NCBI RefSeq assembly: GCF_002904165.1
Contig: NZ_CVTD020000007.1
Coordinates: 1-64,000, forward strand
Source of the DNA: Herbinix hemicellulosilytica
GTDB lineage: Bacteria; Bacillota; Clostridia; Lachnospirales; Lachnospiraceae
Length of the DNA stretch: 64,000 nucleotides
Direction: 5' to 3'
Part shown: positions 10,982 through 63,718 of the stretch, piece by piece
Layout: each line of letters opens with the position of its first letter
How positions within the stretch are numbered: position 1 is the stretch's first letter
Notes under the pieces: model-generated
Seen by the model: only the letters and a program-made list of their open reading frames with translations
Told to the model about the DNA's origin: nothing
Databases searched by the model: none
Program-made: the position numbers and the translations under genes

Positions 10982-11008
10982 AAGTTTACGAAAATTGAAA
11001 ATTTTGCT

Positions 11009-11179
11009 TAAGGTAGAGGTGCGGCATTCATAAGTACGCTGTATGATATTTCAGGGATAGGTGATTACAGCGGAAAGGGGATGCTGCCGAAGCAATAATA
11101 ATCCTGAGTTATTATTGCTGGGCATATGGTGAATAACCATATGACTGTCATCAGTTTTATTGATGGAGCGCTACCTAAA
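11009..11179 (+). promoter_or_regulatory. Lysine riboswitch (L box)
   Basis: The conserved L-box blocks are visible in order: AGGTAGAGGTGCGG at 11011, GGGGATGCTGCCGAAG near 11078-11093, a hairpin ending GCTGGGCAT, TGACTGTCATC near 11141, and TGGAGCGCTACCT at 11164-11176. The closing stem P1 pairs AGGTAG (11011-11016) with CTACCT (11171-11176). It senses lysine and should lower dapA-dapB transcription when lysine is plentiful. The expression platform (11180-11273) is rich in ACGTA repeats, and CTAAAGAATT (11175-11184) can pair with AATTCTTTAG (11263-11272), probably as the alternative helix. Confidence 0.9.
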
Positions 11180-11273
11180 GAATTTACGTATTATATACGT
11201 ATTATGCGTATATATCTTTAAATTTATACGTATAGTACGTCTATAAATTAATATACGTACAGAATTCTTTAGA

Positions 11274-53184: not shown

Positions 53185-53257
53185 GCTGTTGTAGCTCAGA
53201 CGGTAGAGCACCTCATTGGTAATGAGGAGGTCAGCGGTTCAAGTCCGCCCAACAGCT
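53185..53257 (+). tRNA. tRNA-Thr (anticodon GGT)
   Basis: Full cloverleaf: acceptor GCTGTTG/CAACAGC, D stem GCTC/GAGC, anticodon stem CCTCA/TGAGG with loop TTGGTAA, T loop TTCAAGT. The outermost T-stem pair is an A-C mismatch. CCA is not encoded. 73 nt. Confidence 0.95.
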
Positions 53258-53303
53258 TTATCCGTTCTTTCCTTTAAAATTGAATAAGGCAAAAACGGAA
53301 TAT

Positions 53304-53378
53304 CGAGGTGTGGCTCAGTTTGGCTAGAGCGCTACGTTAGGGACGTAGAGGCCGCAGGTTCAAATCCTGTCACCTCGA
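53304..53378 (+). tRNA. tRNA-Pro (anticodon AGG)
   Basis: Acceptor CGAGGTG/CACCTCG, D stem GCTC/GAGC, anticodon stem CTACG/CGTAG with loop TTAGGGA giving anticodon AGG, T stem GCAGG/CCTGT. CCA not encoded. A34 would need deamination to inosine to read all CCU/CCC/CCA. 75 nt. Confidence 0.92.
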
Positions 53379-53534
53379 TTTTTTTATGCTTAAATACGCC
53401 CATTTAATTTGGCGATATGCTGTAAGAATAGGATTGCATTGGTTAAGCCGAAAGACATGATAAAGAGCTTTTAAAAAAATATAATGCTATGCGGAAAATA
53501 TGGATGCATAATTATAAATTTTATAAATAATGTA

Positions 53535-53563
53535 TTGACATAATATAATTCATACGTTATACT
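53535..53563 (+). promoter_or_regulatory. Promoter of the met leader
   Basis: TTGACA (53535-53540), 17 nt, TATACT (53558-53563). Transcription should begin near 53570, 56 nt before the leader ORF. Between the tRNA-Pro gene and this promoter nothing else is seen. Confidence 0.8.
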
Positions 53564-53625
53564 ACCAACAAACATATCTGATTACTTGGAATTATTCAGA
53601 AGTTTCCAGGAAAGGAGCAAATATA

Positions 53626-53724
53626 GTGAGAACATCAGTCATCGTCATGTGCAATATGTGTGACATGTGCGGTATGTGTAATATGTATGACATGCCATAT
53701 AAAATATTGCGCTCTGATAGATGA
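53626..53724 (+). CDS. Met/Cys-rich leader peptide of the metNIQ operon
   Basis: A 32-codon ORF starting with GTG, with AAAGGAG 9 nt upstream. The peptide reads MRTSVIV, then MCN-MCD-MCG-MCN-MYD-M, then PYKILRSDR. Codons 8-23 (53647-53694) are a 9-nt repeat ATG-TGY-NNN, with six Met and four Cys codons in 16. It lies between a consensus promoter and an intrinsic terminator, before a methionine transporter. This is the form of an attenuation leader peptide whose translation speed reports charged tRNA-Met and tRNA-Cys. The CxxCxxCxxC spacing could also bind metal, an alternative I consider less likely given the context. Confidence 0.8.
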   Translation: MRTSVIVMCNMCDMCGMCNMYDMPYKILRSDR

Positions 53725-53808
53725 ATGTGGTGTTTTCATAATAAGAAGATAGACATCTTGTAATAATATTATAGATAATAGTTATGAAAACCGACAGGAG
53801 GCTATCAG
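53714..53808 (+). promoter_or_regulatory. Proposed antiterminator of the met leader
   Basis: Two nested helices compete with the terminator: CTGATAG (53714-53720, last codons of the leader ORF) with CTATCAG (53802-53808, inside the terminator hairpin), and GTTTTCATAA (53732-53741) with TTATGAAAAC (53782-53791). A ribosome stalled on the Met-Cys codons leaves these free; one that reaches the stop codon at 53722 covers the first strand. An early helix GTGCAATAT (53649-53657) with ATATTGCGC (53704-53712) may form without translation. Confidence 0.65.
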
Positions 53809-53824
53809 CCGTCCTGTTTTTTTT
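53793..53824 (+). terminator. Attenuator terminator before metN
   Basis: GACAGGA-GGCT, loop ATC, AGCC-G-TCCTGT with one bulged G, followed by a run of eight T. It lies 73 nt before metN and inside its transcript. Confidence 0.9.
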
Positions 53825-53897
53825 AAGCTGGCATATGAATGCAGTTAAATAATTAGGGATAAGGAACGGTTTTACTAAAGTTTGCGAGGTGGGAGTC

Positions 53898-54905
53898 ATG
53901 GATAATCGAACTCCGATAATTGAACTTATCGGTCTTGGTAAAATTTATAATAATAAAAATAGTTCGGTTAGAGCTTTGGAGGATATCAATTTAAGCATAT
54001 ATGAGGGAGAAATATTCGGTATTATCGGACTTAGCGGGGCAGGGAAAAGTACCTTGGTTCGATGTATAAACTATCTGGAAAGGCCCACGGAAGGGAAAGT
54101 CATTTTTAACGGAATTGATTTGTCAAAAGTCAGTGAAAAAGAATTACTGAAAATCAGACAGTCAATGAGCATGATATTCCAGCAATTTAACCTTTTGATG
54201 CAGCGTACGGCATTGCAGAATATTTGTTTTCCTCTGGAAATAGCCGGTGTACCAAAGAAAGAAGCAAGAAAACGGGCTTATGAACTTTTGGAGGTTGTCG
54301 GACTTAAAGATAAAGCAAAAGCATATCCGGCACAGCTGTCAGGTGGGCAAAAACAAAGGGTTGCCATAGCAAGAGCTTTGGCTACAAATCCTAAAGTTTT
54401 ATTGTGTGATGAGGCAACAAGTGCCCTGGATCCGACAACAACAAGGTCAATCCTTAACCTTCTTAAAGAAATTAATCAAAAACTGGGAATTACCGTTATT
54501 GTTATTACCCACGAAATGAGTGTTATTGAGGAAATTTGCAGCCGTGTTGCCATAGTCGACAAGAGTCAAATTGCTGAAATAGGCACAGTGGAAGAAGTAT
54601 TTATGAAGCCCAAGTCTAAGATTGCAAAACAGCTGGTCTTTTCGGGTGCCAATCATATTGAAATATTTGAAGGAAAAGATAAACTCAGGATAATATTTGA
54701 CGGACGGACTTCTTTTGAGCCTGTAATTGCCAATATGGTATTGGAATGTAAGACTCCGGTGAATATATTATTTGCCGATACAAAGGATATTTACGGTAAA
54801 GCTTACGGTCAAATGGTTATTCAGCTTCCTGACGATGAAAGCGGGAAGAAAAGAATATATGCTTATCTGGAAACCCATAAAATACCGTTTGAGGAGGTGA
54901 TCTAG
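53898..54905 (+). CDS. metN: Methionine ABC transporter ATP-binding protein
   Basis: ATPase of the MetNIQ methionine importer. Walker A GLSGAGKST near 44-52, Q-loop FQQFNLL, signature LSGGQKQRVAIARAL, Walker B VLLCDEATSALDP and H-loop ITHEMSV. The C-terminal 80 or so residues form the NIL (ACT-like) domain (LRIIFDGRTSFEPVIANMV), which binds methionine and inhibits transport in this family. ATG 53898 follows GAGGTGG; an in-frame GTG at 53889 overlaps that site. First gene of metN-metI-metQ behind the attenuator. Confidence 0.95.
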   Translation: MDNRTPIIELIGLGKIYNNKNSSVRALEDINLSIYEGEIFGIIGLSGAGKSTLVRCINYLERPTEGKVIFNGIDLSKVSEKELLKIRQSMSMIFQQFNLLMQRTALQNICFPLEIAGVPKKEARKRAYELLEVVGLKDKAKAYPAQLSGGQKQRVAIARALATNPKVLLCDEATSALDPTTTRSILNLLKEINQKLGITVIVITHEMSVIEEICSRVAIVDKSQIAEIGTVEEVFMKPKSKIAKQLVFSGANHIEIFEGKDKLRIIFDGRTSFEPVIANMVLECKTPVNILFADTKDIYGKAYGQMVIQLPDDESGKKRIYAYLETHKIPFEEVI

Positions 54906-55565
54906 ATGTTTACCAAGGCTATTATCAATATGATAGGAAGAGGAATACTGGAAACTCTTTATATGACATTCTTATCCTCTTTTTTGGCCTATCTCATCGG
55001 GCTTCCTTTGGGGATTTTATTGGTTATAACGGATAAGGACGGGATTAAGCCTTTTATAACACTTAATAAAATCCTGGGTGTGTTAGTTAATCTGATCCGT
55101 TCTGTTCCTTTTGTTATTTTGCTGGTTGCCCTAATGCCGTTTACCAGGGCGGTTGTAGGAACCACCCTTGGCCCCAATGCCGTTGTTGTTCCTTTAGTAA
55201 TCGGCTCGGCCCCTTATATAGCCAGGCTGGTTGAATCTTCATTAAAGGAAGTGGACAGCGGCGTTATCGAAGCTGCACAGTCTATGGGAGCATCACCTTT
55301 TCAAATAGTATTTAAGGTGTTAATTCCGGAAGCTAAACCGTCCCTTATTATGGGAGGAGCCATAGCGGTGATAACTATTCTAAGTTATTCGGCTATGGCA
55401 GGATTTGTCGGAGGAGGGGGACTTGGTACAATTGCCATTAACTACGGTTACTATCGCTATAAAACGGATATAATGTTGGTAACCATAGCCTTAATGGTAT
55501 TAATTGTCCAGGGAATCCAGGAGATCGGAGCCAGATGGATGAGGCGTACCGATAAAAGATTATAA
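54906..55565 (+). CDS. metI: Methionine ABC transporter permease
   Basis: Five-helix permease (219 aa) of the MetI family. It shows the start ETLYMTFLSSFLAYLIGLPLG and the EAA-like loop VIEAAQSMGASPFQIVFKVLIPEAKPS near 118-144 that docks MetN, then SAMAGFVGGGGLG. The ATG follows the metN stop with no gap; GAGGAGGTGAT just upstream is inside the end of metN, so translation is coupled. Second gene of the operon. Confidence 0.95.
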   Translation: MFTKAIINMIGRGILETLYMTFLSSFLAYLIGLPLGILLVITDKDGIKPFITLNKILGVLVNLIRSVPFVILLVALMPFTRAVVGTTLGPNAVVVPLVIGSAPYIARLVESSLKEVDSGVIEAAQSMGASPFQIVFKVLIPEAKPSLIMGGAIAVITILSYSAMAGFVGGGGLGTIAINYGYYRYKTDIMLVTIALMVLIVQGIQEIGARWMRRTDKRL

Positions 55566-55619: not shown

Positions 55620-56546
55620 ATGAAAAAGATCAGTTTAGTATTGTTTTTATTAATTTTTGCGGCTGTACTTGCAGGCTGCGGTACAAAAGATAAGAAGGAC
55701 ACCACCAATCAGCAAAACAATACAGTTAATGAGAATACGCAAGATAATAAAGAAGATACAAAAGAAGATGCAAACGTAGATAATAATGATACAGGAAATA
55801 ATAATACAGCCGAAAAGAAAAAGATTGTAGTTGGGGCCAGCGTTACTCCCCATGCCGAAATTTTGGAAGTTGCAAAAGGTATTTTGGCTAAAAAGGGCTA
55901 TGAACTTGAAATAGTTGAGTACAGCGATTATGTACAGCCTAACCTGGCTTTGGATTACGGTGATCTTGATGCGAACTACTTCCAGCATCAGCCTTATTTG
56001 GATAACTTCAATGAAGAAAGGGGCTTAGACCTTGTATCCGTAGCAAAAATTCACTATGAGCCCTTCGGTTTGTATCCCGGAAAGACTAAAAAGATAGAGG
56101 ATTTAAAAGACGGAGCCTTGATTGCCGTACCCAATGACGGAACCAATGAAGCCAGAGCTTTGCTTCTGCTTGAAGCTCAGGGGCTCATTAAGCTTAAAGA
56201 AGGCGCCGGCATGGACGCAACAATTACCGATATCGTAGAAAATCCGAAAAATCTTGAAATAATTGAAATCGAAGCTGCTCAGCTTGCCCGTTCATTACAG
56301 GACGTTGATATGGCGGTTATAAACGGCAACTATGCTATTCAGGCCGGATTAAATGTATCTAAAGATGCTGTAGCTGTAGAAGCTCAGGATTCACTGGCAG
56401 CTGAAACATATGCCAATATTGTTGCCGTAAGAAGAGGCGATGAAGACAGGGAAGAAATTAAAGCTTTAGTAGAAGCCTTAATGAGTGACGAAGTAAGAGA
56501 CTTTATCGAATCAACATATGAAGGAGCAGTCGTACCTAAGTTTTAA
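55620..56546 (+). CDS. metQ: Methionine-binding lipoprotein
   Basis: Substrate-binding lipoprotein (308 aa) of the NlpA/MetQ family. Signal peptide with lipobox LAGC (Cys20), an Asp/Asn/Lys-rich linker to about 60, then the binding domain: VVGASVTPHAEILEVAK, DYVQPNLALDYGDLDANYFQHQPYLD and VAVPNDGTNEARALLLLEAQGLI-type segments, and later NGNYAIQAGL. GAGGAGGTAAGAGG precedes the ATG, 54 nt after metI. A strong terminator ends the operon. Confidence 0.95.
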   Translation: MKKISLVLFLLIFAAVLAGCGTKDKKDTTNQQNNTVNENTQDNKEDTKEDANVDNNDTGNNNTAEKKKIVVGASVTPHAEILEVAKGILAKKGYELEIVEYSDYVQPNLALDYGDLDANYFQHQPYLDNFNEERGLDLVSVAKIHYEPFGLYPGKTKKIEDLKDGALIAVPNDGTNEARALLLLEAQGLIKLKEGAGMDATITDIVENPKNLEIIEIEAAQLARSLQDVDMAVINGNYAIQAGLNVSKDAVAVEAQDSLAAETYANIVAVRRGDEDREEIKALVEALMSDEVRDFIESTYEGAVVPKF

Positions 56547-63532: not shown

Positions 63533-63563
63533 ATAACAGAAAACTAAATATAAATTATAATTA

Positions 63564-63677
63564 AATGCTAGGGGAGCGGAAGCTGAGAAGTGTGCGTTAA
63601 TGTTGGCTTTGTATAAGCTGCATTTGCATACTGACCCTCAAAACTTGATCCGGGTAATGCCGGCGAAAGGAAGCATT
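63564..63677 (+). promoter_or_regulatory. TPP riboswitch (THI element)
   Basis: The conserved blocks are present: GGGGAGC...GCTGAGA (63571-63587), CTGACCCT, AACTTGATCCGGGTAATGCC and GGCGAAAGGAAG. P1 pairs AATGCT (63564-63569) with AGCATT (63672-63677). Downstream CCTCTCCTT (near 63685) could pair with the AAAGGAGG ribosome site, which suggests translational control. It should repress thiT when thiamine pyrophosphate is plentiful. Confidence 0.93.
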
Positions 63678-63718
63678 CAGTGTTCCTCTCCTTAGCAAAA
63701 ATTAAAGGAGGTTTTTTT

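Follow-up and report, generated by a model that had tools for sequence, protein, structure and literature searches.

The attenuators of the trp, his and leu operons (Escherichia coli trpL and its kin) are ribosome-mediated. The leader described here stands upstream of metNIQ in a 64,000-nucleotide stretch of Herbinix hemicellulosilytica DNA (the whole stretch analysed, hereafter the window). It resembles those attenuators in its short open reading frame (ORF) rich in the amino acid presumed to be regulated, in its mutually exclusive antiterminator and terminator, and in a putative protector helix that includes the start of the ORF. It differs from them in its amino acid, which is Met together with Cys, in its target, a transporter gene in Clostridia, and in the position of its stop codon, which is not fixed. 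Because translation itself begins with Met, such a sensor would rely on its own ligand for initiation, unlike those of trp, his and leu.

In Firmicutes, S-box and T-box control of methionine genes is textbook knowledge, and most described cases of leader-peptide attenuation are, to our knowledge, from bacteria other than Clostridia. The window leader would likewise control Firmicutes methionine genes by premature termination, but unlike the S-box and the T-box it would require translation of an ORF for sensing. The met T-box of Staphylococcus aureus binds the initiator tRNA, according to the available text of that study (PMC3771891).

The closest precedent that we found is the predicted metL leader of Streptomyces lividans TK24, in which a peptide with Met and Cys, MSTTSDRTPATEATTTPGARCMCRRMCAF, ending in CMCRRMCAF, lies 5' of metNIQ (PMC8079986). 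As far as the available part of that report goes, metL is a prediction from RNA-seq alone, its start is leaderless and no typical Rho-independent terminator was found; the operon is the same as in the window and the peptide likewise holds Met and Cys, but the phylum is different. Cys leader peptides are described in Actinobacteria, at the Mycobacterium cys operon and B. longum cbs (PMC1262725), and a Cys-codon leader, uORFC-8-2, precedes cysS in Rhodobacterales (PMC8632094). These are Cys-codon ORFs like the window's, but in the available text they involve Cys only, and other genes; the actinobacterial comparison reports there Cys leaders without conserved terminator hairpins and Met operons without conserved structure (PMC1262725). 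Leader-peptide attenuation in Gram-positive bacteria is also represented by a His leader peptide before hisS/hisZ, which Naville and Gautheret reported as new for Firmicutes (PMC2965389), and by a Leu-rich attenuator peptide of S. aureus (PMC5794164); in the portions available, these concern other amino acids and other genes, in Bacilli. For the uORF of fthC, a Streptococcus gene of one-carbon metabolism, the authors suggest that Met acts via initiator tRNA on the leader ORF (PMC11109978); the available text mentions no run of Met codons, unlike the window leader.

Our literature search, which covered subscription papers poorly, so that an earlier report is possible, returned no tested Met leader peptide and none at metNIQ in this phylum. 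A preliminary description of this locus knew of no well-described case for methionine transport in Clostridia; this holds in that no tested one was found, but it must be qualified by the Met/Cys leader already predicted for metNIQ of S. lividans. We regard the mechanism as one of a known kind, and the Met (perhaps Cys) leader at metNIQ in this phylum as what is new here.

Layout of the leader and its operon

The locus comprises, in order, a promoter, a Shine-Dalgarno sequence, a 32-codon ORF, a 69-base spacer and an intrinsic terminator, followed by metN, metI and metQ:

53535–53563, + strand: promoter TTGACA-17-TATACT, 11/12 consensus matches
53566–53586, + strand: 5' UTR block ccaacaaacatatctgattac / CCAACAAACATATCTGATTAC, conserved by eye in relatives of the window's type
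53611–53617, + strand: Shine-Dalgarno sequence AAAGGAG, from the sequence
53626–53724, + strand: leader peptide ORF, GTG start, 32 codons, VRTSVIVMCNMCDMCGMCNMYDMPYKILRSDR; stop TGA at 53722–53724
53647–53694, + strand: Met-Cys-X repeat; Met codons 8, 11, 14, 17, 20 and 23, Cys codons 9, 12, 15 and 18
53794–53824, + strand: intrinsic terminator, stem ACAGGAGGC/GCCgTCCTGT plus eight T, from fold and comparison
53898–54905, + strand: metN, ATPase with C-terminal NIL domain (NCBIfam; Pfam ABC_tran and NIL)
54906–55565, + strand: metI, permease (NCBIfam; Pfam BPD_transp_1)
55620–56546, + strand: metQ, NlpA-family substrate-binding lipoprotein (NCBIfam; Pfam NlpA lipoprotein)

The promoter, AAAGGAG, the GTG start with its 32 codons, the five-fold repeat, the terminator with eight T and the downstream metNIQ genes were all located where the preliminary description had placed them. 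TTGACA-17-TATACT scores highest among eight promoter-like sites in the region (3.8 in shuffles), and our script detected a comparable promoter 5' of 24 of the 25 distinct leaders of the genus. The ORF contains five 9-nt repeats beginning ATGTG or ATGTA from 53647, and its internal codons include six Met and four Cys. At least six ATG codons per 20-codon open stretch were seen in just 3 of 5000 shuffled family upstream regions and in 0 of 2100 shuffled genus-type regions. With a promoter and a ribosome site 5' of an operon, the ORF is predicted to be translated. Its GTG start is the window's exception, ATG being used in the other 24 of the 25 distinct leaders. A second ORF (ATG TGG TGT..) right behind the stop was rejected because relatives show ATG TGA at that point.

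The flanks of the promoter carry features of their own. The 5' UTR block at 53566–53586 sits just 3' of it, and the helices described below give no explanation for this block. Directly 5' of the promoter lie genes for tRNA-Pro (anticodon AGG, 53303–53379) and tRNA-Thr (GGT, 53185–53257), and a tRNA end, CACCTCGATTTTT, is present upstream of the leader in several relatives.

As an attenuator demands, an intrinsic terminator stands between ORF and operon. The hairpin at 53794–53817, with eight T up to 53824, folds at -14.1 kcal/mol (the fold counts one flanking pair). A simple terminator scan of the region listed none, this hairpin included, probably because of its one-base bulge. All pairs of the stem are intact in 18 of 18 sequences, the window counted (162/162 cells), and two of the pairs are altered on both sides across this set.

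Judging from the sequence, the start of metN is likely the ATG at 53898 rather than the GTG at 53889 given in the ORF list. As expected of a MetNIQ importer, a metN with a C-terminal NIL domain shares one operon with metI and metQ. The permease scores over the NCBIfam cut-off for the MetI subfamily. MetN is the best equivalog match, yet lies under its curated cut-off (348.9 vs 499.7), and MetQ/NlpA falls slightly under its own (221.4 vs 228.85); with these scores below the cut-offs, methionine is the presumed rather than the assigned cargo of the transporter.

An Rfam search of 53380–53905 at E≤1 gave zero matches, and the covariance models of the S-box (RF00162) and the T-box (RF00230) were unmatched at the leader locus. 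We therefore rejected an S-box, a T-box or another Rfam RNA as the identity of the leader. The same genome holds a single S-box, 5' of metK, and 14 T-boxes over cut-off; it thus possesses such devices, though not at this locus. Elsewhere in the window, Rfam matches at gathering level mark a lysine riboswitch (11006–11181) and a TPP riboswitch (63560–63688).

Conservation in the genus and the alternative helices

A covariance model built from 18 leaders identified a homologous leader in 27 of 34 genomes of the genus (E<1e-5); among the remaining seven, six are without metN at E≤1e-100 and one has a contig that begins at metN. Of the best 18 MetN loci (L039–L056, from Herbinix, Mobilitalea sibirica and Clostridiales MAGs; the best 80 of 113 MetN-relative stretches were examined), 17 bear a homologous leader directly 5' of metN; for the remaining locus, L045, upstream DNA is missing. 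One of the contigs, L043, is filed as Anaerolineaceae (Chloroflexota), and its MetN and leader fall within the Herbinix-like group (MetN tree); it is probably a mis-binned MAG contig.

Met codons are retained throughout the 25 distinct leaders of the genus. In nine distinct leaders of the window's type (the window included; L039, with one extra codon, excluded), the six internal Met codons are present in 54 of 54 cells, and neighbouring codons vary, at codons 5, 12, 13, 19, 22, 25 and 26. Codons for the amino acid presumed to be handled by the operon are both enriched and conserved, as in an attenuator. According to the preliminary description, relatives that keep the terminator but not the ORF, or drift that destroyed the Met codons, would tell against its reading. 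Neither was seen: every Met cell is kept, and none of the 34 genus genomes has metN and upstream DNA yet no leader.

One genus locus, L178 (G428), has at 1486–1577 a different Met-repeat ORF (MSGDCDMSDMCDMSDMPRSNETN...), which enters the start of an O-acetylhomoserine sulfhydrylase gene (TIGR01326). A terminator was looked for at this ORF and none was seen; it is perhaps a translational Met leader for metY. By DNA similarity, such a metY leader occurs in one of the 34 genus genomes.

The leader RNA can form the following alternative helices:

53626–53637, + strand: P1 5' strand GTGAGAACATCA, 12/12 pairs in the window including G-U
53728–53739, + strand: P1 3' strand TGGTGTTTTCAT; P1 also appears when the full leader is folded to minimum energy
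53716–53720, + strand: P2 5' strand GATAG, in the last ORF codons, from covariation and folds
53802–53806, + strand: P2 3' strand CTATC, in the terminator arm and loop, from covariation and folds
53726–53728, + strand: antiterminator pair TGT, partner ACA at 53794–53796 in the terminator 5' arm
53732–53741, + strand: P3 5' strand GTTTTCATAA, from comparison and folds
53782–53791, + strand: P3 3' strand TTATGAAAAC, from comparison and folds

The preliminary description had drawn two of these as 53714–53720/53802–53808 and 53732–53741/53782–53791, and both are exact. Its antiterminator overlooked the TGT:ACA pair, a short helix that occupies the base of the terminator arm, and its inventory omitted the start-codon helix P1.

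Evidence for P2 comes from compensatory change, which had been proposed as a check. Counted over 25 distinct leaders treated as independent, with shared ancestry ignored, P2 pairs in 154 of 175 cells (shuffled mean 140.5) and shows 16 double changes (shuffled mean 6.1); 0 of 2000 shuffles reach either value. Further pair types in P2 were not above shuffles (949 of 2000 reach the count). The P2 strand and the terminator arm change jointly, as GATAG/CTATC, GATAAG/CTTATC and GACGGC/GCTGTC, so the stop-proximal helix covaries with the terminator in the manner predicted. P3 (GTTTTC:GAAAAC) lies directly 5' of the terminator and is compensated in the diverged group L171–L174 (GTTATC with GATgAAC or GATAAC); it beats shuffled sequence at p≤0.05 in just 11 of 25 leaders. 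When the terminator 3' arm is left out, folds contain P2 and TGT:ACA in 25 of 25 leaders and P3 in 24, the exception being L042. By these folds and by P2 covariation, antiterminator and terminator are mutually exclusive, as attenuation requires. A pairing of the 5' UTR block with GATAGATGA, noticed by eye, was dropped because it does not track the P2 change in L171–L175.

Helix P1 would join the start of the ORF to the antiterminator: the start region ATGAGAACATCA is complementary to the P3 strand TGRTGTTTTCAT. For this comparison exact duplicates were merged, reducing 44 rows to 25, and L163 and L169 were dropped (the script missed the motif or the start). The complementarity is present in 25 of 25 leaders, with 10–12 of 12 pairs in 24 of them and 8 in L174; covariation is scarce, and the P1 sequence is close to invariant. 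Among window-type leaders the codons AGA (8/9) and ACA (9/9) are conserved, which fits P1 pairing. By analogy with the trp 1:2 helix, P1 may act as a protector, promoting termination on transcripts that ribosomes fail to load.

The position of the stop codon bears on whether a terminating ribosome would mask the antiterminator, which we judged by the usual ribosome footprint on mRNA. In the window type the stop lies 6 nt past the start of GATAG, so a terminating ribosome should cover GATAG. The stop position varies across the 25 leaders, between −14 and +59 nt relative to the first base of the P2 strand. The L053 stop appears too early, and a terminating ribosome would barely reach P2; with the longer ORFs it would sit 3' of P2, and in several of these the stop lies inside the hairpin above P3. 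The ORFs of L048–L052, L054 and L170 extend in frame across the conserved RNA block and read it as ..SECDVF.., ..GECDVF.. or ..SECGVF..; in the window type most of this block is 3' of the stop. The preliminary description proposed that a ribosome completing the peptide would mask the antiterminator strand. This agrees with the geometry of the window type but not with the stop position of some relatives; given this variation, the simple masking account is best for the window's own type.

Methionine and cysteine codons in other genera

The preliminary description dealt with this leader alone. A scan of metN upstream regions in other Clostridia widened that scope, and the idea of a curiosity confined to the genus was rejected: similar leaders lie 5' of metN in other genera. 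Within 450 nt 5' of metN, 21 of 100 loci from other genera of the family have an open stretch of 20 codons that includes six or more ATG (the loci were drawn from a 250-genome family sample, with a MetI match in 134). The controls for these 100 loci gave 0 on the reverse strand, 0 for TGG and a shuffle expectation of 0.06. Wider loci have such a stretch in 6 of 61, a set that includes L105, a contig starting at metN (no real upstream DNA); here the reverse strand gave 1, TGG 0 and shuffles 0.02. Nine of 215 loci, in which the metN N-terminus was unrecognisable, were left out of the scan.

The peptides of these leaders differ, for example MNQLKAMQMNMYMMNGMMMCRMSMCVKNRK (L013), MKNFAMAMCGMMMCGSMSFGHGERVRPWVLA (L081) and MAQFSNSMMNMDMMMQMSMGMCVMMMCKNIYNTCL (L113), with start codons picked by eye. 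The same layout appears to recur 5' of metN in other Clostridia, in sequences that are not alignable end to end. Our script found a terminator in 31 of 34 tested leaders (33 non-window leaders and the window; some, containing 4 or 5 Met, had been picked by eye). It missed L022, L024 and L097, two of which, L022 and L097, show a hairpin on visual inspection. Complements to the terminator 5' arm and loop, searched from 45 nt before the stop to 50 nt after, exceed shuffles overall (Fisher p 1.2e-8, treating related leaders as independent); single duplexes reach p≤0.05 in just 8 of 31, and the window's best duplex in this search is another one, 25 nt past the stop, rather than P2. In the L013-like set, most of the terminator arm and loop is paired with a conserved TTGTATGGATTGTGATTG.

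Mapped onto a MetN tree with 112 rows, the leader label requires 14 changes, at least five of them forced by well-supported branches; rows without a detected leader were labelled "other", and missed leaders may hide there. A T-box or S-box at metN, by gathering score, was present in 6 of 17 wider loci searched (S-box in L071 and L074; T-box in L064, L065, L068 and L070). Among family loci it was present in one of a set of 80 and in none of another 20. Of these 100 scanned family loci, a subset of those fetched, 99 gave no Rfam match over gathering score.

Searches by RNA similarity gave a different picture. A covariance model with terminator pairs only (R1, from 18 leaders) reached E≤0.1 in 19 of 397 family genomes, convincingly just for the sample's two genus genomes. 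The other 17 matches (L134–L150, E 0.002–0.088) were rejected as leaders, with at most four Met per 20 codons around the match; the leaders of other genera are therefore not found through RNA similarity with R1. The weak non-genus matches of the genus covariance search were L176 and two more. The pattern ATGTGYNNNATGTGYNNNATG had 35 matches in 29 of the 397 genomes vs 20 for a reversed control pattern, so the Met/Cys pattern alone is a weak, modest signal. Inspection by eye covered the matches with loci of their own apart from L263, L274 and L285. Those in short frames with a terminator lay 5' of metN (L264, L279, L280, L283 and L288) or, in a single case, 5' of a different gene (L284); the remaining matches inspected were in long frames or in frames without leader features. 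In L284 (G073), a short ORF ..MKGFKKLTGMCYMCMMKRMQYFRAGVTVRCMA and a terminator-like hairpin at 1432–1572 precede a gene at 1697–2914 that encodes a glutathione S-transferase C-terminal domain (PF13410); this ORF is a possible Met/Cys leader for another gene.

Cysteine accompanies methionine in these peptides. Of the leaders picked on Met count alone, 27/27 contain Cys and 23 contain at least two; Cys makes up 82 of their 677 non-Met residues (12.1%), vs 0.96% in the window's longer ORFs (≥250 aa). The full set of 34 non-genus leaders was assembled partly by eye (seven of them have a 20-codon Met count below six or were matches of the pattern). In this set the residue after an internal Met is Cys in 57 of 179 cases, vs 46 of 625 elsewhere. 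The corresponding values for the 25 genus leaders are 76 of 148 vs 28 of 491. In the window type, Cys is present at codon 9 in 9/9 leaders, at codon 15 in 5/9, at codon 18 in 8/9 and at codon 21 in 6/9; the window's Cys at codon 12 is found in 0 of the 8 other close leaders. The simplest reading is that slow decoding of Cys would also trigger the switch, which makes sense where Met is the source of Cys. Alternatively, the TGY codons could be kept for RNA pairing.

Proposed mechanism and its alternatives

We consider it highly probable that the leader is a ribosome-mediated transcription attenuator controlling metNIQ. Conservation of the leader, the invariant Met codons and P2 covariation support the preliminary description in its reading of a Met- and possibly Cys-sensing attenuator. 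From the features that sequence comparison establishes (an ORF with conserved Met codons, a terminator, a covarying P2 and the gene context), we infer the stalling and its ligand, the masking by the ribosome, the P1 step and the contribution of Cys, as follows. The transcript would begin just past the promoter, and a ribosome would load onto the leader ORF. With ample charged tRNA-Met (and tRNA-Cys), it would reach the stop at 53722 and cover GATAG..TGTG; the terminator at 53794–53824 would then form and metNIQ would be off. A ribosome stalled at the Met/Cys codons of 53647–53694 would leave GATAG, TGT and GTTTTC free to pair with CTATC, ACA and GAAAAC, and this antiterminator would take the terminator 5' arm, so that RNA polymerase continues into metNIQ. 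If the ribosome is absent, the start region would pair with TGGTGTTTTCAT, blocking the antiterminator, and the terminator would form, as with the trp 1:2 helix. One argument counts against any sensor built on Met codons: Met starvation should also lower fMet-tRNA, and hence initiation.

The same RNA switch would operate downstream if the nascent Met/Cys peptide itself arrested the ribosome with methionine, SAM or cysteine, in place of hungry codons. The recurrence of MCGM or MCR(M/T) across genera, resembling CMCRRMCAF of the predicted Streptomyces leader, is what such an arrest peptide would lead one to expect. However, the length, order and Met number of the peptides vary across genera, and the recurring G/R codons (CGGCATG..CATGTGCCG) could form a putative RNA hairpin, seen by eye in several leaders, that would account for these codons with no role for the peptide; we consider peptide arrest improbable.

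Even less probable is an element of RNA only, in which the near-invariant GATAG-R-TGAATGTGRTGTTTTC block would be a riboswitch or a protein-binding site and the ORF incidental. No other part of the genus leaders is as well conserved as this block, and, being 3' of the window-type stop yet in frame in the longer ORFs, it is conserved at the RNA level. Pairing to the start region and to the terminator arm, however, explains much of it; there are no Rfam matches, the Met codons are invariant, and other genera have Met-codon leaders without the block at the same place. The slightest chance belongs to an ORF whose product is itself a working small Met/Cys protein (with a metal or redox role, or as a MetNIQ partner), the terminator just setting a basal level. 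In its favour, a good ribosome site precedes the ORF, the peptide has conserved residues, and Met/Cys-rich peptides can bind metals. Against it, the peptides of different genera share neither length nor order nor most of their residues, whereas Met content, the terminator and, in aggregate, the arm complements near the stop recur.

Returning to the ribosome-mediated attenuator, we advance a broader reading tentatively, and with more doubt than belief. Clostridia would hold a class of sulfur-amino-acid attenuators, gained or lost several times at metNIQ, where relatives use an S-box or T-box; one leader would read Met and Cys codons and so integrate both supplies; and the P1 of the genus would check fMet initiation, so that readthrough rises under moderate and falls under extreme Met starvation.

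What has been found looks like a recurring class of Met/Cys attenuators. Such a leader at a clostridial transporter operon would add an amino acid usually absent from the list of attenuators, and it supplies a candidate regulator for an operon that is Rfam-negative in nearly all the family loci scanned (99/100). It also poses the question of how a sensor uses codons of the amino acid that initiates every protein, for which the 59 leaders (25 from the genus and 34 others) are natural variants ready for tests.
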